Assembly: GCF_000688455.1 (NCBI RefSeq)
Contig: NZ_JIAL01000001.1
Span: forward strand, 1,333,001-1,397,000
Source of the DNA: Pseudacidobacterium ailaaui
GTDB taxonomy: Bacteria; Acidobacteriota; Terriglobia; Terriglobales; Acidobacteriaceae
Reading direction: 5' to 3'
DNA length: 64,000 bases
Every line of letters starts with the position of its first letter. Position 1 is the stretch's first letter. This document shows, piece by piece, positions 12,317 to 19,118 of this stretch. The position numbers were made by a program, and so were the translations under genes. Below the pieces are notes generated by a model. That model was not told the origin of the DNA. It saw only the letters and a program-made list of their open reading frames with translations, and made no database searches.

Positions 12317-12394
12317 CTACAGAAGAGAAATGGTCAGCAGGTGGATTCCCAGCAGCGAGAGGTTCAGCACGATGGGCAGTAAACCAGTCAGCAT
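12317..12394 (-). CDS. Tiny hydrophobic peptide 1 (25 residues)
   Basis: The peptide begins MLTGLLPIVLNLSLLGIHLL and ends TISLL. It shares with the two genes upstream the pattern PIVxxLxLLGxxLLTxxL. Its only residue that can be charged is one His; the whole chain could form a single membrane helix. The ribosome site AGAAAGGAG lies eight bases before ATG 12394, and the coding stretch ends in TAG. Three tandem paralogues with equally placed strong ribosome sites argue that these are real genes. It is the last gene before the terminator. Possible roles are a type I toxin-like peptide or a small membrane regulator; neither is shown. Confidence 0.72.
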   Translation of the reverse strand: MLTGLLPIVLNLSLLGIHLLTISLL

Positions 12395-12617
12395 GGCTTT
12401 TTCTCCTTTCTTCCTGAAACAGGAATTTTTCGGTCTTACAGCACTGGGGTCGTCTCTTGACCGGCCCTCTTCCTCGGGGTCCATGGTCCAATGGAAGCAC
12501 TTCGGGAAGCAGTCAAGCTGACCATGCCGGGCAGCCTGGCCCCCTTGCCCTCCCGAGGAAAATCCGGCAGCGCGGTGAAGTCGGTCTGCACAACTCCACA
12601 GAAATGGGTCCTGAGTC

Positions 12618-12680
12618 CTAGAGGGTCAGGGTCAGAAGAGTGATTCCGAGCAGCGTAAGAGTGATAACGATAGGCGTCAT
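12618..12680 (-). CDS. Tiny hydrophobic peptide 2 (20 residues)
   Basis: The whole product is MTPIVITLTLLGITLLTLTL: no charged residue, mostly Leu, Thr and Ile, with a central Gly. AGGAGG sits eight bases before ATG 12680; the stop is TAG. It is the closest match to peptide 3 (PIV, LLG, LLTLT shared in register). About 220 bases separate it from peptide 1; I see no other gene in that spacer. Function unknown. Confidence 0.75.
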   Translation of the reverse strand: MTPIVITLTLLGITLLTLTL

Positions 12681-12763
12681 CGTATTCTCCTCCTTTCTCC
12701 CTTTTTGCAAAGGAAAATCAACTTCACCGCAAACCGAACCGGAAGAACATTGGAAAGCAATCA

Positions 12764-12829
12764 TTAAGCAATGGTCAGGGTCAGCAGAGTGACGCCAAGC
12801 AGCGCAAGGCTAACAACGATGGGCAGCAT
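12764..12829 (-). CDS. Tiny hydrophobic peptide 3 (21 residues)
   Basis: The product begins MLPIVVSLALLGVTLLTLTI and ends with Ala: uncharged, with a central Gly. ATG 12829 has AGGAGG eight bases upstream; an in-frame ATG two codons earlier (12835) lies too close to the ribosome site. It is the first gene of the leftward unit and lies beside the AT-rich region shared with the divergent RiPP operon, whose precursor gene carries the same AAGAAAGGAGG leader. Function unknown. Confidence 0.75.
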   Translation of the reverse strand: MLPIVVSLALLGVTLLTLTIA

Positions 12830-12871
12830 GGACATTTCCTCCTTTCTTGCGATGTAGGGACGGGCAAGCTA

Positions 12872-13067: not shown

Positions 13068-13095
13068 TTGACCTCACCTGAAGAAAGGAGGATGT

Positions 13096-13281
13096 ATGCA
13101 TACTGTCTCTTCATATATTCCCGGCTCCTCTGAAACAGACCTCGGTAAGCCATACGCCAGACCTGAAATTGTGGAATACGGCTCTGTAGCACAGGTGACC
13201 AAAGCCAGCTGGCCCTTTGGAGTGCACGGTTTTCCTGAGCCGGAGCAGTCCAGTCTGTCCGTGGCCGTTACACTCGTCTAA
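13096..13281 (+). CDS. RiPP precursor peptide with lasso-type leader
   Basis: A 61-residue peptide. The leader carries Y20-x2-P23-x-I25-x3-G29-x5-T35, an exact fit to the YxxPxLxxxGxxxxxT recognition motif of lasso precursors bound by PqqD-like B1 proteins (Ile for Leu). By lasso rules the core would begin two residues after the Thr, at Ala37: ASWPFGVHGFPEPEQ, then SSLSVAVTLV. That core has no Asp/Glu at positions 7-9, the residue needed for a lasso ring; the first is Glu at position 12. AAAGGAGG precedes ATG 13096. It is the first gene of the maturation operon, which contains a matching PqqD-like protein and B2-type protease. Confidence 0.85.
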   Translation: MHTVSSYIPGSSETDLGKPYARPEIVEYGSVAQVTKASWPFGVHGFPEPEQSSLSVAVTLV

Positions 13282-13312
13282 CTTCTGTTTTTGCTGAAGC
13301 TGTGCTTGCAGA

Positions 13313-14206
13313 ATGCGCTATCTAGCCTTTGGTTCGTGCATAGAAAGCGATTTCGACCTAGGGCCACTGCCAACGGCGGAGAGTGCACCGGTGGTAGTGT
13401 CCCTACAGTTTTCTCGGGTCGCCGAGCTTCCTGTTCCTAGGGTCGCAAAGATCCGCACACACCGTGCGCAGGCCAGAGACATTGAGACTTTTGCTCAGGG
13501 CCACGATGTTTATCTGCAGATTGAGGGCCTGTTGCAGTTCCACCTGGAGTGGAAGCACGATGTCCTCTCCTGCGTTGCAACACCGGAGGCGAGCGACACG
13601 GTCGTCCGCTACTGGATCCTGCAACACGCTTTGCCTGTCTTTCTACTGCTGAGCGGTCGGGTGGACCTGCTCCATGCAGGTGCGGTCGTCATGGATGATT
13701 CTGTCGTGGGCTTTCTTGCTGAATCCGGCGTTGGTAAATCCACTTTAGTGGGCCATTTTCTCTCCTATGGTCATCAGCTATGTACGGATGAACATCTCGC
13801 CCTGGTCCGGGACAAAGAGGGGGCCGTGGCTCCGGCGATCCCCTATTACCGTCCGGGCAGGGACACAGAGGACCTGGGGAGATTTGTAGCTGGCTTTTCC
13901 CCTGAGCCACGCCCGTTGCGGGCCCTCTATCTGTTGCAGCCTGCCCCGGCGGAAGGCCCGGTGATGGTGGAAGAGTTGCGGGGAATAGCTGCGGCCTCTG
14001 TGCTTCTGGAATACAGCCAGTGCACCCTGGCCAATCCGAAGGTCCCTTCCTTCCGGCCCATTCTGCAGAGGCGTTTCGAGGACCTGACCCGGCTCTCTAC
14101 CACCGTGCCTGTCCGGGTCTTGCGTGTGCCCAGAGCGCTCGATCGGCTTCCGGAAGTCTACCAGCACGTCTGCCAGGACCTTGGCCTGAAAGGAGCTGCG
14201 CATTGA
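13313..14206 (+). CDS. HPr-kinase-like ATPase of the RiPP operon
   Basis: A 297-residue protein with an HprK C-terminal-like fold: LLHAGAVVMDDSVVGFLAESGVGKSTLVGHFL, with the Walker A at Glu137-Thr144 (SGVGKST). LCTDEHLALVRD follows as the acidic segment of the family. Such proteins occur in many lasso and PqqD-containing peptide clusters; one lasso relative phosphorylates a C-terminal Ser of its precursor. Here the precursor ends in Val, although Ser52, Ser53 and Ser55 are available. The N-terminal 110 residues are of unknown fold. The stop overlaps the TTG start of the radical SAM gene. Confidence 0.8.
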   Translation: MRYLAFGSCIESDFDLGPLPTAESAPVVVSLQFSRVAELPVPRVAKIRTHRAQARDIETFAQGHDVYLQIEGLLQFHLEWKHDVLSCVATPEASDTVVRYWILQHALPVFLLLSGRVDLLHAGAVVMDDSVVGFLAESGVGKSTLVGHFLSYGHQLCTDEHLALVRDKEGAVAPAIPYYRPGRDTEDLGRFVAGFSPEPRPLRALYLLQPAPAEGPVMVEELRGIAAASVLLEYSQCTLANPKVPSFRPILQRRFEDLTRLSTTVPVRVLRVPRALDRLPEVYQHVCQDLGLKGAAH

Positions 14207-15225
14207 TCCGCTATGAGGTAGTCGGACTCCTTTACACCATGACCTGCCCGCTTACCTGTGCGCACTGCATCGTTGAATCGTCGCCGAAGGCCCAGGGCAA
14301 GATGAAAAAAGAGGTTGCCGAAGGCTATCTGCGGGTCATTCCTAAATACAGCGATACCGTCTGCTTCACAGGCGGAGAGCCATTTCTTTACTTCAACGAA
14401 GTGTTGGACCTTGTCCGGCAGGCCAAAGCCCTGGGCCTGAAGATCACCATGGTCTCCGGAGCAGGGTGGGTGCGCGTGGACAAGGCCGAAATTGCCCGCG
14501 AACGGGTTTCTCTGTTGAAGGAAGCAGGTTTGAACTCTCTGTGCATCAGTTGGGACGAGTACCATGAGGCCGGCGCCCCGCGAGAACAGCCCCTGCTGCT
14601 CGCTTCGCTGGCAAATGAATGCGGCCTGCAGGTCCTTGTGCGCAGCGTCATTCCCGCCACCTGCAATTATCAGGAGCAGGAAAAGGTCTTTGCCGGCATC
14701 CCGATCCACTATCAGCCGGTCAAACTGATCCAGCTTGGAGCGGCAAAAAAGCTGCCCAAAGAACAGTTTTATCAATATGACGGACTGCCCCGCGGGCGGT
14801 GCAGCGTGGTCTACTCACCCGCCATTGAGCCGGACGGCAATGTATATGCCTGCTGCGGTCCGGGAAGGTTCAGTCTTCCCTCGTCTCCGCTCATCCTGGG
14901 CAACACCAACCGGGAAGATCTGGACACCATCTTCGCCCGCGCTACAGCAGATCCTATCTTTGAGGCGCTTGCGTTGGTCGGCCCTTATGGCCTCCACGAA
15001 ATTCTGAAGGACACGCCAGCGATGAAGGACCATTTTCATCCTCGGCGCCAGTACTCCAGTATCTGCGACCTCTGCATTGACATCTGCGACACGCCGGAAC
15101 TGGTGGCCACGCTCCATGAGCGCATGAATGAGGCAGACTCGAAGGCCCTTCTGGTGGCCGCACGCCTTTGGTACGCGGAAAACCAGCGCCGGGAATCCTG
15201 TGGTCACGCTATTTCAAACGCCTGA
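14203..15225 (+). CDS. Radical SAM protein with auxiliary-cluster cysteines
   Basis: A 340-residue protein. The cluster motif CxxxCxxC is Cys15-Cys19-Cys22 (MTCPLTCAHC), with the SAM-binding FTGGEPFLY. Further cysteines at 200, 217, 218, 288, 291 and 295 (YACCGPG, CDLCIDIC) suggest a SPASM/Twitch-like auxiliary cluster as in peptide-modifying members. The start is TTG 14203, overlapping the previous stop, with AAGGAG seven bases upstream; no ATG fits before the cluster motif. Radical SAM enzymes install C-C, C-S or epimerised residues in RiPPs; which of these occurs here is unknown. It takes the place a lasso cyclase would have in a usual cluster. Confidence 0.85.
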   Translation: MIRYEVVGLLYTMTCPLTCAHCIVESSPKAQGKMKKEVAEGYLRVIPKYSDTVCFTGGEPFLYFNEVLDLVRQAKALGLKITMVSGAGWVRVDKAEIARERVSLLKEAGLNSLCISWDEYHEAGAPREQPLLLASLANECGLQVLVRSVIPATCNYQEQEKVFAGIPIHYQPVKLIQLGAAKKLPKEQFYQYDGLPRGRCSVVYSPAIEPDGNVYACCGPGRFSLPSSPLILGNTNREDLDTIFARATADPIFEALALVGPYGLHEILKDTPAMKDHFHPRRQYSSICDLCIDICDTPELVATLHERMNEADSKALLVAARLWYAENQRRESCGHAISNA

Positions 15226-15237
15226 GGTCAGAGATTT

Positions 15238-15519
15238 ATGCTCGCAACCGCAAAGATCAAGGTCCCGGAAGGGGTCCTTTCCCAGTCACTCGAAAACGAA
15301 ACCATTCTGCTGAATATGGACAGTGGCTTGTTCTTTGGATTGACCCCGGTTGCCAGCCGCATCTGGGCGCTGCTGGCCGCCGGACATACCCCGCTGGAGG
15401 TCCATCGGATGTTGCTGGAGGAATATCGCGTGGATCCCGCTGTCCTTGAACAGGACCTGGAAGACCTCCTGCACAGGCTGGCAGAAAAAGGTCTGATCCA
15501 GTACGTGGACGCCGCATAG
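15238..15519 (+). CDS. PqqD-family peptide recognition protein (B1-type RRE)
   Basis: A 93-residue stand-alone PqqD domain: ATAKIKVPEGVLSQSLENETILLNMDSGLFFGLTPVASRIWALL, then a helical C-terminal part (LEQDLEDLLHRLAEKGLI). The family binds precursor leaders and delivers them to the modifying enzymes. The precursor at 13096 has the leader motif recognised by lasso B1 proteins, so the pairing is well supported. It starts 12 bases after the radical SAM gene. Confidence 0.9.
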   Translation: MLATAKIKVPEGVLSQSLENETILLNMDSGLFFGLTPVASRIWALLAAGHTPLEVHRMLLEEYRVDPAVLEQDLEDLLHRLAEKGLIQYVDAA

Positions 15520-15530
15520 AGGTCTGCGCC

Positions 15531-16691
15531 ATGCCTCTCGATGAGTGCCGTCTTCTGCTTGCCTGCGTCCAGACTGCTTTGGGCCTTTCGCCACAAGAAG
15601 ACGTATGCCTGTTGCTCGAACGGCCCTGCGACTGGGAGCGGTTCCTGGAGCTCGCAGGATGGCATGGAGTTGTGCCACTCGTCCATCTTTCTCTCAGAGA
15701 ACAGGAGGCCGTACCCGCGGAGGTCCGCCAAAGACTGCACCGCTACTACACTCTGAACGCCCAGCGCTCTCTGCATCTGCTAGGGGCGCAGCTTCGCATC
15801 CACCAATGGATGACCGCGCGGGGGCTCCGCCTGGTTTCCTGGAAGGGGCCGATCATGGGAAAGCGGCTCTACGGAAACAACGCCTGGCGAGAGTCCTGCG
15901 ATCTGGATTTTCTGGCCCACCCGAATGACTTTAAAAGGGTGCTCGAAGCATTCTTGCAGATGGGCTATGTTCACGGCGCTTCCCGCTGGACGGCTGAGCA
16001 GTTGTCCCGCTGGCATCAGGCCCAGCATGAAGCCAGGCTTTTCCATCCGGAAACACGTACCGCCGTCGAACTCCATGATGCCGTACTCCCGGAGTATTTT
16101 CTGCTAAAAAGGCTGAATGCGCCGGACCTGATCGTGCGTGCCCAGCCTTTGGAGGCACACGGTCATCTTCTCTGTCTCCAGCCCGAGGATGAGTTTCTTG
16201 CCCTGTGCGGGCACGGCACAAAACATAGCTGGGACCGCCTGAAGTGGATCTGTGACATAGTGCAGTTTCTGCGGACTTACGCCCATGCTCTGGATGCGCA
16301 GGCGCTGATGGACCATGCCCGGACCTATTGCTGCACAAATGTTGTGCTTCTGGGCACAGGTCTGGCCCAGGAACTTTTCCGTATCCCATTGCCACAGCCC
16401 CTTGAAAGCGCCTTGCAACGCCATCGCCTGATGCGCGGAGAGGCTGCACGGCTGGCCCAGCGCTTTCTCTCCGGAGGAATGGGCGCCGAGGATGACGCAG
16501 AGAGGTCCAGGCTGCATCTGGCCGTGATGCAGGGGCCGTTTTCTAAGGCAGGGTATCTCCTTCGCAAGCTGGTCTGGATCAACCCGGAGGTAATCCAGGA
16601 TTATCGTTCGGACTGGCGCTGGCGCATTCGCTACTATTCCCGGAGGCTCCTGCACGTCACGGCCAAAGGGCTGCGGCTTATGCCGCGCTGA
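15531..16691 (+). CDS. Nucleotidyltransferase-family protein of the RiPP operon
   Basis: A 386-residue protein of the NTP_transf_5 type: LVSWKGPIMGKRLYGNNAWRESCDLDFLAHPNDFKRVLEAFLQMGY is the family core, with acidic residues in CDLDFL, and FLALCGHGTKHSWDRLKWICDIVQFL follows. Such proteins are frequent in lasso and related clusters but their job there is poorly known; nucleotidyl transfer to the peptide or a helper is possible. It starts 11 bases after the PqqD gene and ends 11 bases before the protease gene. Confidence 0.8.
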   Translation: MPLDECRLLLACVQTALGLSPQEDVCLLLERPCDWERFLELAGWHGVVPLVHLSLREQEAVPAEVRQRLHRYYTLNAQRSLHLLGAQLRIHQWMTARGLRLVSWKGPIMGKRLYGNNAWRESCDLDFLAHPNDFKRVLEAFLQMGYVHGASRWTAEQLSRWHQAQHEARLFHPETRTAVELHDAVLPEYFLLKRLNAPDLIVRAQPLEAHGHLLCLQPEDEFLALCGHGTKHSWDRLKWICDIVQFLRTYAHALDAQALMDHARTYCCTNVVLLGTGLAQELFRIPLPQPLESALQRHRLMRGEAARLAQRFLSGGMGAEDDAERSRLHLAVMQGPFSKAGYLLRKLVWINPEVIQDYRSDWRWRIRYYSRRLLHVTAKGLRLMPR

Positions 16692-16702
16692 AGGACCGCC
16701 CT

Positions 16703-17191
16703 ATGATTCCCCTGCAACGCATGTGGACGCTATTGCGGAAATTTCTCTCCCTACCGGGGGAAAGAAAATTGCAGCTTTTGCATTGCTGGCTGCTGCTTTG
16801 GGGCGTGCGAGGCGCTCTGCTGGTGTTGCCTTCGCAGGCCCTTCTGGCTTGGGCCAAGCGCAGCCTTCGTCCGGACCGCGTCTCCTCACCAGAAGAACGC
16901 AGGACAGAGGGCAGGAAACTTGCCGCGATGGTGGCCCGGTGCAGCCGTGCCGTGCCCGGGGCCAGATGCCTTGCCCGTGCACTCACCTTGCAGGTCCTGC
17001 TAGGCCATAGAGGACACTCCTGTGACCTGCACATCGGCGTCGCCCGCTCGCCTCGCGAAGGGTTTACTTCTCATGCCTGGATTGTGCTGGACGGCGAAGT
17101 GGTTCTGGGTGGCACCGGCGCTCCCCTCGCTTACCGTTCGATTCTGGTATCGGCCAGCAGCCGGACGCAGGCTTCCATACAGGGGTCCTAG
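16703..17191 (+). CDS. Lasso B2-type leader peptidase (transglutaminase fold)
   Basis: A 162-residue protein matching the lasso B2 protease family. Cys89 sits in PGARCLARALTLQVLLGHRGHSCDLHIGV, His124 in FTSHAWIVLDG, with Asp130 beside it, giving a plausible Cys-His-Asp triad. Expected role: cut the precursor after the leader, near Lys36/Ala37. It closes the operon; no transporter or cyclase gene follows. Its stop overlaps that of the convergent gene by four bases. Confidence 0.88.
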   Translation: MIPLQRMWTLLRKFLSLPGERKLQLLHCWLLLWGVRGALLVLPSQALLAWAKRSLRPDRVSSPEERRTEGRKLAAMVARCSRAVPGARCLARALTLQVLLGHRGHSCDLHIGVARSPREGFTSHAWIVLDGEVVLGGTGAPLAYRSILVSASSRTQASIQGS

Positions 17192-18203: not shown

Positions 18204-19118
18204 ATGGCAGTCGTTCCCATTTCCCTTGATGCCCTCTCCACACACACCCCCGAACAGGCGCGCCAGTGGTGCGCACAGCTCGAAGCCGGAGACATCCTCT
18301 ATTTTCCCAGCACGCCCGTCCCGTTACCTCACGATGAAATCGACTTCTTGCTCGGCCAGCAGCAGACCGACAGCTCGCTGCATAAAAATATTGCCTACAA
18401 ACCAAATCTGGACAAGCTAAGCGGTGTCGACACCAGTACCGCCGACGCGCAGGCCGTGAAACGCCTGCAGGAGGTCATGCGGCAATACTCGCAGCGCGTC
18501 ACCGGCTTTCTGACACAGTTCCTCTCTCCTTACCAGTCCCGCTGGCAACTGGATTACGCCAGCTTCCGTCCGCAGGAAGAAGAAGGCCGGGACCTGCCTC
18601 TGCGCCGCCGGAATGATCTGCTGCACACCGATGCATTTCCCACCCGGCCGACCTATGGAGCACGCATTCTGCGCTTCTTTAACAACATCCATCCTTCGCG
18701 TACGCGTGACTGGGTCGTGAGCGATCCCTTTGCCGCCATCGTCAGACAGTTCGTCCCCCAACAGATTGCCCCGCGAAAAGATGGGCCTTTGGGCCGTTCG
18801 GCGAAGGTCCTGGGTCGAGCAATCGGACTGGGCGCCGCCATCCCATCGCTCAAACGCTCCCCTTATGACGACTTCATGATGCGCTTCCACAATTTCCTCA
18901 AAGAAAACTCGCGCTTTCAGGCCGAATGCCCGAAATACTCCTTCCATTTCCCCCCTGGTTCAAGCTGGATGGTCTACACCGATACCGTCCCCCATGCCGT
19001 GCTGGCCGGCCAATACGCTCTGGAGCAGACCTTTCTGGTAAAGCCGGAGGCCCTGGTCCGGCCGGAGATCTCCCCGCTCCGACTGCTGGAAGAGATCGCA
19101 GAGAGTCGGCTGGTGTAG
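18204..19118 (+). CDS. kdoO: Kdo 3-hydroxylase-family Fe(II)/2-oxoglutarate dioxygenase
   Basis: Hydroxylates Kdo of lipid A-linked inner core to Ko in relatives from Burkholderia and Yersinia. At 304 residues it is near the usual length. A facial triad is visible as His141-x-Asp143 (NDLLHTDAFPTRPTYGARILRFFNN) and His264 (YTDTVPHAVLAGQYALEQTFLV). This fits a Gram-negative envelope. No other LPS gene is adjacent; the upstream neighbour is a small membrane protein four bases away. Confidence 0.9.
   Translation: MAVVPISLDALSTHTPEQARQWCAQLEAGDILYFPSTPVPLPHDEIDFLLGQQQTDSSLHKNIAYKPNLDKLSGVDTSTADAQAVKRLQEVMRQYSQRVTGFLTQFLSPYQSRWQLDYASFRPQEEEGRDLPLRRRNDLLHTDAFPTRPTYGARILRFFNNIHPSRTRDWVVSDPFAAIVRQFVPQQIAPRKDGPLGRSAKVLGRAIGLGAAIPSLKRSPYDDFMMRFHNFLKENSRFQAECPKYSFHFPPGSSWMVYTDTVPHAVLAGQYALEQTFLVKPEALVRPEISPLRLLEEIAESRLV

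Follow-up and report, generated by a model that had tools for sequence, protein, structure and literature searches.

A six-gene operon with a lasso-type leader and a radical SAM gene

The window analyzed here is a 64,000-nucleotide stretch of the Pseudacidobacterium ailaaui genome (assembly GCF_000688455.1, contig NZ_JIAL01000001.1, positions 1,333,001 to 1,397,000), and all coordinates are relative to its first nucleotide. Six genes of an apparent operon for a ribosomally synthesized and post-translationally modified peptide (RiPP) are arranged head to tail on the forward strand between positions 13096 and 17191. They encode a 61-amino-acid precursor peptide (13096..13281), an HprK-like kinase (13313..14206), a 340-amino-acid radical S-adenosylmethionine (SAM) protein related to the epimerase EpeE (14203..15225), a PqqD-type RiPP recognition element (RRE) protein in the role of lasso B1 (15238..15519), an NTP_transf_5 protein (15531..16691), and a lasso-type B2 leader peptidase of the Transglut_core3 type (16703..17191). 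An initial annotation, made from the letters of the sequence, had placed six genes here, and all were found at those positions. The intergenic gaps are, in order, 31, −4, 12, 11, and 11 bases, the radical SAM gene overlapping the kinase gene by 4 bases from its TTG start at 14203. A Shine-Dalgarno-like AAGGAGG can be read directly 5′ of the precursor gene (13085..13091).

The precursor comprises a leader (residues 1 to 36) and a predicted core (residues 37 to 61). Direct reading confirmed the perfect leader motif previously reported, Y-x2-P-x-I-x3-G-x5-T at residues 20 to 35 (13153..13200), as Y20-x2-P23-x-I25-x3-G29-x5-T35. The window precursor thus carries both the YxxP motif and the Thr at position −2 that characterize lasso leaders, and it scores 19.2 bits against the NCBIfam lasso leader model NF033521 (cut-off, 19). 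Proteusin leaders are long and nitrile-hydratase-like; the 61-residue precursor (P0001) has no Pfam match at an E value of ≤1 and no leader of that type. With its boundary placed from the Thr at −2, the core would be ASWPFGVHGFPEPEQSSLSVAVTLV, starting ASWPFG. Its positions 7 to 9 are V-H-G, where a lasso ring would have Asp or Glu, and its C-terminal tail, S-V-A-V-T-L-V (13258..13278), is conserved in character among related cores (see below) and is the proposed enzyme target.

The radical SAM protein carries the CxxxCxxC motif at C15/C19/C22 and matches PF04055 at 46 bits. Its best NCBIfam family is TIGR04078 (YydG), at 88.4 bits compared with 40 for the next family, and the same NCBIfam family ranks first for each of the seven radical SAM proteins considered below. 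EpeE is the sole strong match among PDB sequences (phmmer E value of 5e-15; next, ≥0.026). When an AlphaFold model of the protein (mean predicted local distance difference test [pLDDT] score, 69) was searched with Foldseek, EpeE supplied the top nine matches, with template modeling (TM) scores of 0.66 to 0.72 and 18 to 20% identity in the alignments; none of the other 41 matches listed exceeded a TM score of 0.52 by query or 0.64 by target. In VIA-align, EpeE gave a Z score of 19.5 over 296 residues and PqqE one of 18.2 over 207, so the fold alone does not identify the chemistry.

Five cysteines (C200, C217, C218, C288, and C291) are paired with cysteines of EpeE in an HMMER alignment and are kept in all seven proteins. 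The initial annotation had counted six extra cysteines; there are 11 beyond the motif and 14 in total. C218 aligns with EpeE Cys223, on the basis of an offset of 25 in chain numbering that was derived from the D210A mutant chain. Cys223 is described as the hydrogen donor of EpeE, which has a second cluster in its C-terminal part, in portions of two reports (PMC8326336, PMC5682303). We conclude that the radical SAM protein probably works like EpeE. It is not filed as a YydG equivalog, because the scores fall below the cut-off of that model and Asp210 of EpeE is not kept.

The four remaining proteins resemble components of lasso peptide clusters. The kinase matches HprK_rel_A weakly by sequence (24.4 bits; E value of 1.4e-5; cut-off, 200) and has no match among PDB sequences at an E value of ≤1. 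Its predicted fold is nearest to HPr kinase and phosphoenolpyruvate carboxykinase, again weakly (TM scores of ≤0.59 by target and ≤0.46 by query). A kinase motif with His, Lys, and Asp residues is described for lasso clusters in parts of two papers (PMC9266682, PMC10368454), and H121, K142, and D159 are invariant in the six kinases aligned here. The NTP_transf_5 protein matches PF14907 at 175 bits and keeps a D-x-D (RESCDLDFL) in five aligned sequences.

The PqqD protein matches PF05402 at 56 bits, and its best PDB match is TbiB1, a lasso RRE (63.5 bits), as expected of a B1 protein; two NCBIfam lasso PqqD models rank best for it, at 42 bits, below their cut-offs of 70 and 80. The peptidase exceeds the cut-off of the B2 model NF033537 (78 bits; cut-off, 33) and has no PDB sequence match at an E value of ≤0.1. 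The Cys of its CL/CF motif and the His of its HAW/HTW motif are kept in eight aligned B2 proteins; we take these to be the catalytic residues.

Recurrence of the operon and pairing of precursor and enzyme

Samples of 398 genomes from the host's family and 396 from its phylum, each drawn from a larger group, were searched for relatives (genomes and loci are denoted by G and L numbers). A single-protein query against 300 family genomes detected four close radical SAM genes beyond the window, in three genomes. A six-row profile applied to all 398 detected seven close genes including that of the window (564 to 621 bits; five genomes), and distant ones only (91 to 140 bits) in four further genomes. 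Among the 396 phylum genomes (E value of ≤1e-30), the only genomes with close radical SAM genes were G000 and G289, both already known to carry them; distant genes were present in G108 (132 bits) and G700 (163 bits). Besides the window genome, four family genomes (G017, G100, G289, and G342) contain the operon, and the close radical SAM proteins other than that of the window, six in number, are 46 to 76% identical to it. The whole order of precursor, kinase, radical SAM, PqqD, NTP_transf_5, and B2 genes is present at five loci (the window, L001, L028, L029, and L099). Two loci are partial: L030, with precursor and radical SAM genes only, and L134, with precursor, kinase, and radical SAM genes only. 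Their genomes, G289 and G342, respectively, each have a full operon as well.

Each of the seven close radical SAM genes adjoins its own lasso-leader precursor gene, the six beyond the window encoding homologs of the window precursor. When a precursor model was run against the 398 genomes without regard to neighboring genes, full-length matches were obtained at the same seven loci (56 to 92 bits) and nowhere else, with no further copy in the five genomes; three leader-only matches (26 to 31 bits) were found in G024, G026, and G015. Six of the seven loci supplied the sequences for both the precursor model and the radical SAM model; L134, the remaining locus, was found with the latter. Because the precursor search made no reference to the radical SAM gene, it rules out that gene as a chance neighbor, an outcome that the initial annotation had named as fatal to its interpretation. 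The proposal that lasso recognition and cleavage genes have been joined to a radical SAM gene as a conserved unit is upheld.

Outside these samples, a contig scan with a single-sequence query and exact patterns found only one close relative (L001), and spread beyond the family is under-sampled as a result of that design. Ten deltaproteobacterial loci with EpeE-like proteins (L002 to L011; 23 to 27% identity) had no match to the window precursor, PqqD, HprK, NTP_transf_5, or B2 proteins (E value of ≤0.01) in the stretches examined. A loose leader pattern picked out frames on the opposite strand in L004, L006, L011, and L031 that appear to be due to chance. A separate hunt by eye for precursors in 11 relatives, again with a loose pattern, returned mostly what look like chance frames. 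Weaker Acidobacteriota relatives (G108, G035, G193, G167, G317, and G700) had no match to the operon proteins alongside and were not counted as family members. At the G700 locus, from another Acidobacteriota family, an EpeE-like radical SAM gene lies between two large unnamed open reading frames (ORFs) (L075, 6998-10934); no lasso-type precursor was found there, and this locus possibly specifies a different epimerized RiPP. None of 29 pattern-matching stretches of viral contigs encoded a relative. Twelve plasmid records contained EpeE-like proteins; the ten listed, of which two are annotated as YydG, are 23 to 25% identical. Six of these distant plasmid matches (H2 to H7) come from Thermus, Rhizobium, Tropicibacter, Eleftheria, Streptomyces, and the archaeon Halocatena and either carry the annotation radical SAM protein or belong to an unannotated record.

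Conservation of the leader and of a Ser-led tail

The seven precursors are 53 to 61 amino acids long, with starts that we assigned. The leader Y, P, E, Y, and G are kept in all of them; the Thr at −2 is kept in six, L134 having Ser instead. Five of the seven reach the NF033521 cut-off of 19, and the other two score 18.1 and 18.4. Core lengths range between 15 and 28, which means that the tail is retained and the middle is what differs. The tails are Ser-led and mostly beta-branched in all seven cores: the Ser is 7th from the C-terminal end in six and 8th in L099, the residues after it are exclusively V, I, L, A, T, S, F, or G, and the last six residues fall within the set V, I, L, A, T, S, F, G, and M in every core. 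None of 20,000 shuffles was as extreme as the observed tails; this is a description only, since the pattern was chosen after seeing the data and the peptides are related.

None of the seven cores contains Cys, which argues against the thioethers of sactipeptides and ranthipeptides. No aromatic residue is common to all seven; the L028 core lacks aromatics altogether, and three cores end in Phe. The C-terminal residue is never Ser and is Thr in L028. The earlier statement that core positions 7 to 9 lack Asp and Glu holds for the window, L001, and L028 and fails for the family, because L029, L030, L099, and L134 have Asp or Glu at these positions. Compared between the window and L001, synonymous and nonsynonymous differences per site are 0.72 (pS) and 0.17 (pN) for the radical SAM gene and 0.85 and 0.27 for the precursor core, the latter from few sites. 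By this comparison the precursor appears to be subject to purifying selection.

Absence of a lasso cyclase

That the operon lacks a cyclase, as first annotated, was borne out: a cyclase profile (E value of ≤10; ORFs of at least 80 amino acids) had no match in the 64-kb window or in L001, L028, L029, L030, L099, or L134, and hence at none of the seven loci. The window genome is complete in a single contig, and its only B2 match is that of the operon. PF00733 matches occur at six places in this genome. The two full-length proteins rank best as an XrtA amidotransferase (530 bits) and an asparagine synthase (522 bits), with 294 and 252 bits against the lasso cyclase model; the others are a weakly matching 463-amino-acid protein, QueC, MnmA, and NAD synthase. 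The lasso cyclase model ranked first for all six B2-linked cyclases from other loci, and the 18 kb surrounding each of the two full-length proteins yielded no B2 or PqqD gene. A lasso cyclase elsewhere in the window genome is excluded by this ranking and gene context. The score of our own profile is not decisive by itself, because the B2-linked cyclases of L084 and L105 (281 and 278 bits) score like the amidotransferase of the window genome (273 bits); the NCBIfam ranking and the context settled the matter.

Among the other genomes with the operon, G100 (88% complete) and G289 had no cyclase match at an E value of ≤1e-5. G017 and G342 each hold a cyclase (513 and 694 bits) beside a separate, second B2 locus. 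A remote cyclase consistently paired with this precursor family, which the initial annotation had listed as contrary evidence, was thus not what was found: a cyclase is present in two of the five genomes, each with a B2 gene of its own. We also inspected 39 further B2 regions (L076 to L114; 10.8 to 15 kb), hand-chosen from the B2 matches and mostly on long contigs. A cyclase-type gene was present in 33, the radical SAM operon in one (L099), and neither in five (L079, L082, L095, L102, and L112). Sixteen of the 33 cyclases were included in the cyclase profile; a phmmer search with two synthases of the window genome had found all 33 earlier. In four of the five regions (L082, L095, L102, and L112), no cyclase was detected in about 14 kb around B2, and B2 may thus have further roles in pathways that lack a cyclase.

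Relationship to phosphorylating lasso clusters

In phylogenetic trees of B2 (41 rows; 97/92), NTP_transf_5 (11 rows; 96/91), and HprK (18 rows; 100/100), a single branch separates the five full operons from the remaining sequences. The B2 group lies within a 16-row branch together with seven loci that bear a cyclase and with four of the five in which none was detected. Among the leader-only precursor matches, the G026 locus (L146, 6504-8670) has a like leader, kinase, PqqD, B2, NTP_transf_5, and cyclase, with Asp at core position 9. The G015 locus (L149, 6533-8630) is a similar lasso-leader cluster with kinase, NTP_transf_5, and B2 genes and no cyclase seen within the 18 kb taken, and the G024 match lies beside a kinase at the end of a short contig. 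L146 and L149 also have a gene that reads by eye like a methyltransferase. These relationships are best explained if a lasso lineage that phosphorylates its peptides exchanged its cyclase, once, for a radical SAM enzyme; since the trees are midpoint-rooted, the direction of the replacement is itself inferred.

Genes flanking the operon

Of the next two large genes downstream, one has no family above cut-off. The other (18204-19118, forward strand) belongs to the Kdo hydroxylase family (PF11004, 333 bits; KdoO model, 230 bits; cut-off, 300). Upstream, three tandem hydrophobic ORFs of about 20 to 25 amino acids with LLG.TLLTLT-like ends lie on the reverse strand (12317-12835), divergent from the operon. 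Three similar tiny ORFs are present in L001, from the same genus (1070-1442); the pattern was found in none of the upstream stretches of L028, L029, L030, L099, and L134.

Proposed pathway and alternative explanations

We interpret the locus as a dedicated RiPP operon, derived from the lasso lineage by loss of the cyclase and gain of an EpeE-like epimerase, whose product would be a linear peptide decorated and containing D-amino acids; we assign this interpretation a probability of roughly 0.67. In the proposed order of events, the PqqD protein would bind the YxxP leader and present the precursor. The radical SAM enzyme would abstract the C-alpha hydrogen from at least one Val, Ile, Thr, or Ala of the C-terminal tail, and Cys218 would return a hydrogen from the opposite face, yielding D-residues. 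The HprK-like kinase would phosphorylate Ser or Thr, perhaps the conserved near-terminal Ser, and the NTP_transf_5 protein may add to the phosphate so installed. B2 would then cut after residue 36, one residue past Thr35, to release a linear, decorated D-amino-acid peptide rather than a lasso. In other lasso clusters, B1 assists the kinase, hydroxylase, and epimerase as well as B2, and a kinase and a nucleotidyltransferase are known tailoring partners, according to portions of two reports (PMC9266682, PMC10368454). A like role in both tailoring and cleavage is therefore likely for the PqqD protein.

Several observations weigh against this interpretation. The TIGR04078 scores (88.4 bits in the window, 76 to 96 in its six relatives) fall well short of the equivalog cut-off of 300, and in L028 the best-matching stretch covers residues 12 to 129 only. 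The Asp210 position of EpeE is Ser in three proteins and Gln in four. The structural model has pLDDT values below 50 at residues 14 to 31 and in stretches near the later cysteines, with a mean of only 69, and PqqE comes close behind EpeE in VIA-align. Tail conservation derives from seven related peptides and a pattern defined post hoc, and four of the seven cores have Asp or Glu at lasso ring positions. The last residue of the kinase motif is Glu in the window, L001, and L028 and Asp in the other three. The PqqD tree (38 rows) has no clean clade, the long-branched L076 falling inside, and the NTP_transf_5 tree is small, at 11 rows. In the portion of the flanks that was scanned, neither an exporter gene nor an immunity gene was identified.

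Some of these observations would suit a radical SAM enzyme that forms another bond (a C-C, C-O, or ether cross-link) or oxidizes one residue instead of producing a D-residue: the YydG scores are below the equivalog cut-off, Asp210 is not kept, and the general fold is common to RiPP radical SAM enzymes, PqqE being aligned nearly as well as EpeE. Yet EpeE is the nearest solved enzyme by a clear margin in both sequence and Foldseek comparisons, the Cys aligned with its hydrogen donor is kept in all seven proteins, and the cores offer neither Cys nor a shared aromatic residue; we regard such chemistry as unlikely. The product might also be a lasso peptide after all, closed by a cyclase acting in trans, with the radical SAM protein as an added tailoring epimerase in the manner of MslH in MS-271. 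The leader, RRE, B2, kinase, and NTP_transf_5 protein are all known from lasso clusters, Asp or Glu is found at core position 8 or 9 in four of the seven precursors, and G017 and G342 have cyclases elsewhere. This is nevertheless distinctly improbable given that G100 and G289 have no cyclase match at an E value of ≤1e-5, that the two full-length PF00733 proteins of the window genome rank as other enzymes and have no B2 or PqqD gene in the surrounding 18 kb, that the only B2 match of that genome sits in this operon, and that the window, L001, and L028 cores have no Asp or Glu at positions 7 to 9. The partial loci L030 and L134, which lack PqqD, NTP_transf_5, and B2, could be taken as signs of a decaying or nonfunctional lasso cluster beside which a radical SAM gene was inserted. 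Both, however, are in genomes that also have the full operon; the genes are open and constrained between the window and L001, and the gene order is the same at 48 to 51% radical SAM identity. Decay is accordingly hard to credit.

Relation to known systems

The proposed D-amino-acid pathway has its closest enzymatic counterpart in the epipeptide (EPE) system of Bacillus subtilis (epeXEPAB, with EpeE/YydG). The likeness extends over radical SAM sequence, fold, CxxxCxxC motif, the Cys223 equivalent, and the other C-terminal cysteines, and the Val and Ile that EpeE targets are frequent along with Thr in the tails here. In contrast to EPE, the present operon has a lasso leader, RRE, B2, kinase, and NTP_transf_5 protein; it does not keep Asp210, and identity to EpeE is 18 to 20%. 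EpeX has a 32-residue leader that is removed during export, according to part of one report (PMC8326336), and no EpeP or EpeAB genes are present within the six-gene operon.

The phosphorylated lasso peptides with split B1 and B2 (pseudomycoidin and the bsf cluster, and paeninodin for the kinase) share the YxxP leader, discrete RRE, B2, HprK-like kinase, and NTP_transf_5-like gene, but they have a cyclase where this operon has a radical SAM enzyme. Paeninodin is phosphorylated at its C-terminal Ser and BsfA at Ser3; no core here ends in Ser. MS-271/siamycin likewise joins lasso leader machinery to a peptide epimerase aided by B1, as part of one source describes (PMC9266682), but MslH belongs to the metallophosphatase superfamily and acts on the C-terminal Trp, and the cyclase MslC is kept. 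The proteusin epimerases PoyD and OspD share radical SAM epimerization and an enzyme Cys as the proposed hydrogen donor.

The initial annotation had suggested a RiPP class not known as described. For the chemistry, that wording is not supported: the radical SAM protein is closest to EpeE, and the kinase and nucleotidyltransferase are of types known from lasso clusters. That the combination of lasso leader processing with a radical SAM enzyme is undescribed stays plausible. In the open-access literature, searched by title and start of abstract (a range that mostly excludes subscription papers), none of the papers listed dealt with a lasso-leader pathway that lacks a cyclase and uses a radical SAM epimerase. 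The peptide natural product of this operon is probably of a kind not yet described. Whether it represents a new RiPP class, in which the lasso leader, RRE, and B2 serve a cyclase-free product defined by EpeE-like tail epimerization and phosphate-based decoration, is in our estimate evenly balanced.

For genome mining, a lasso leader with B1 and B2 would not in itself signify a lasso peptide. The operon would add a divergent branch of probable peptide epimerases and offer a small, concrete target for the isolation of D-amino-acid peptides from Acidobacteria. Set against the cyclase-free radical SAM operons, its cyclase-bearing relatives, such as L146, would provide a natural comparison for the way in which an RRE passes a single type of leader to enzymes that are not related. 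If our interpretation is correct, lasso leader processing is a module that can be transferred in nature, with the cyclase as the component that is exchanged. This would give a natural precedent for an aim of RiPP engineers, namely, to replace the enzyme that defines the class while leader, RRE, and peptidase stay the same.

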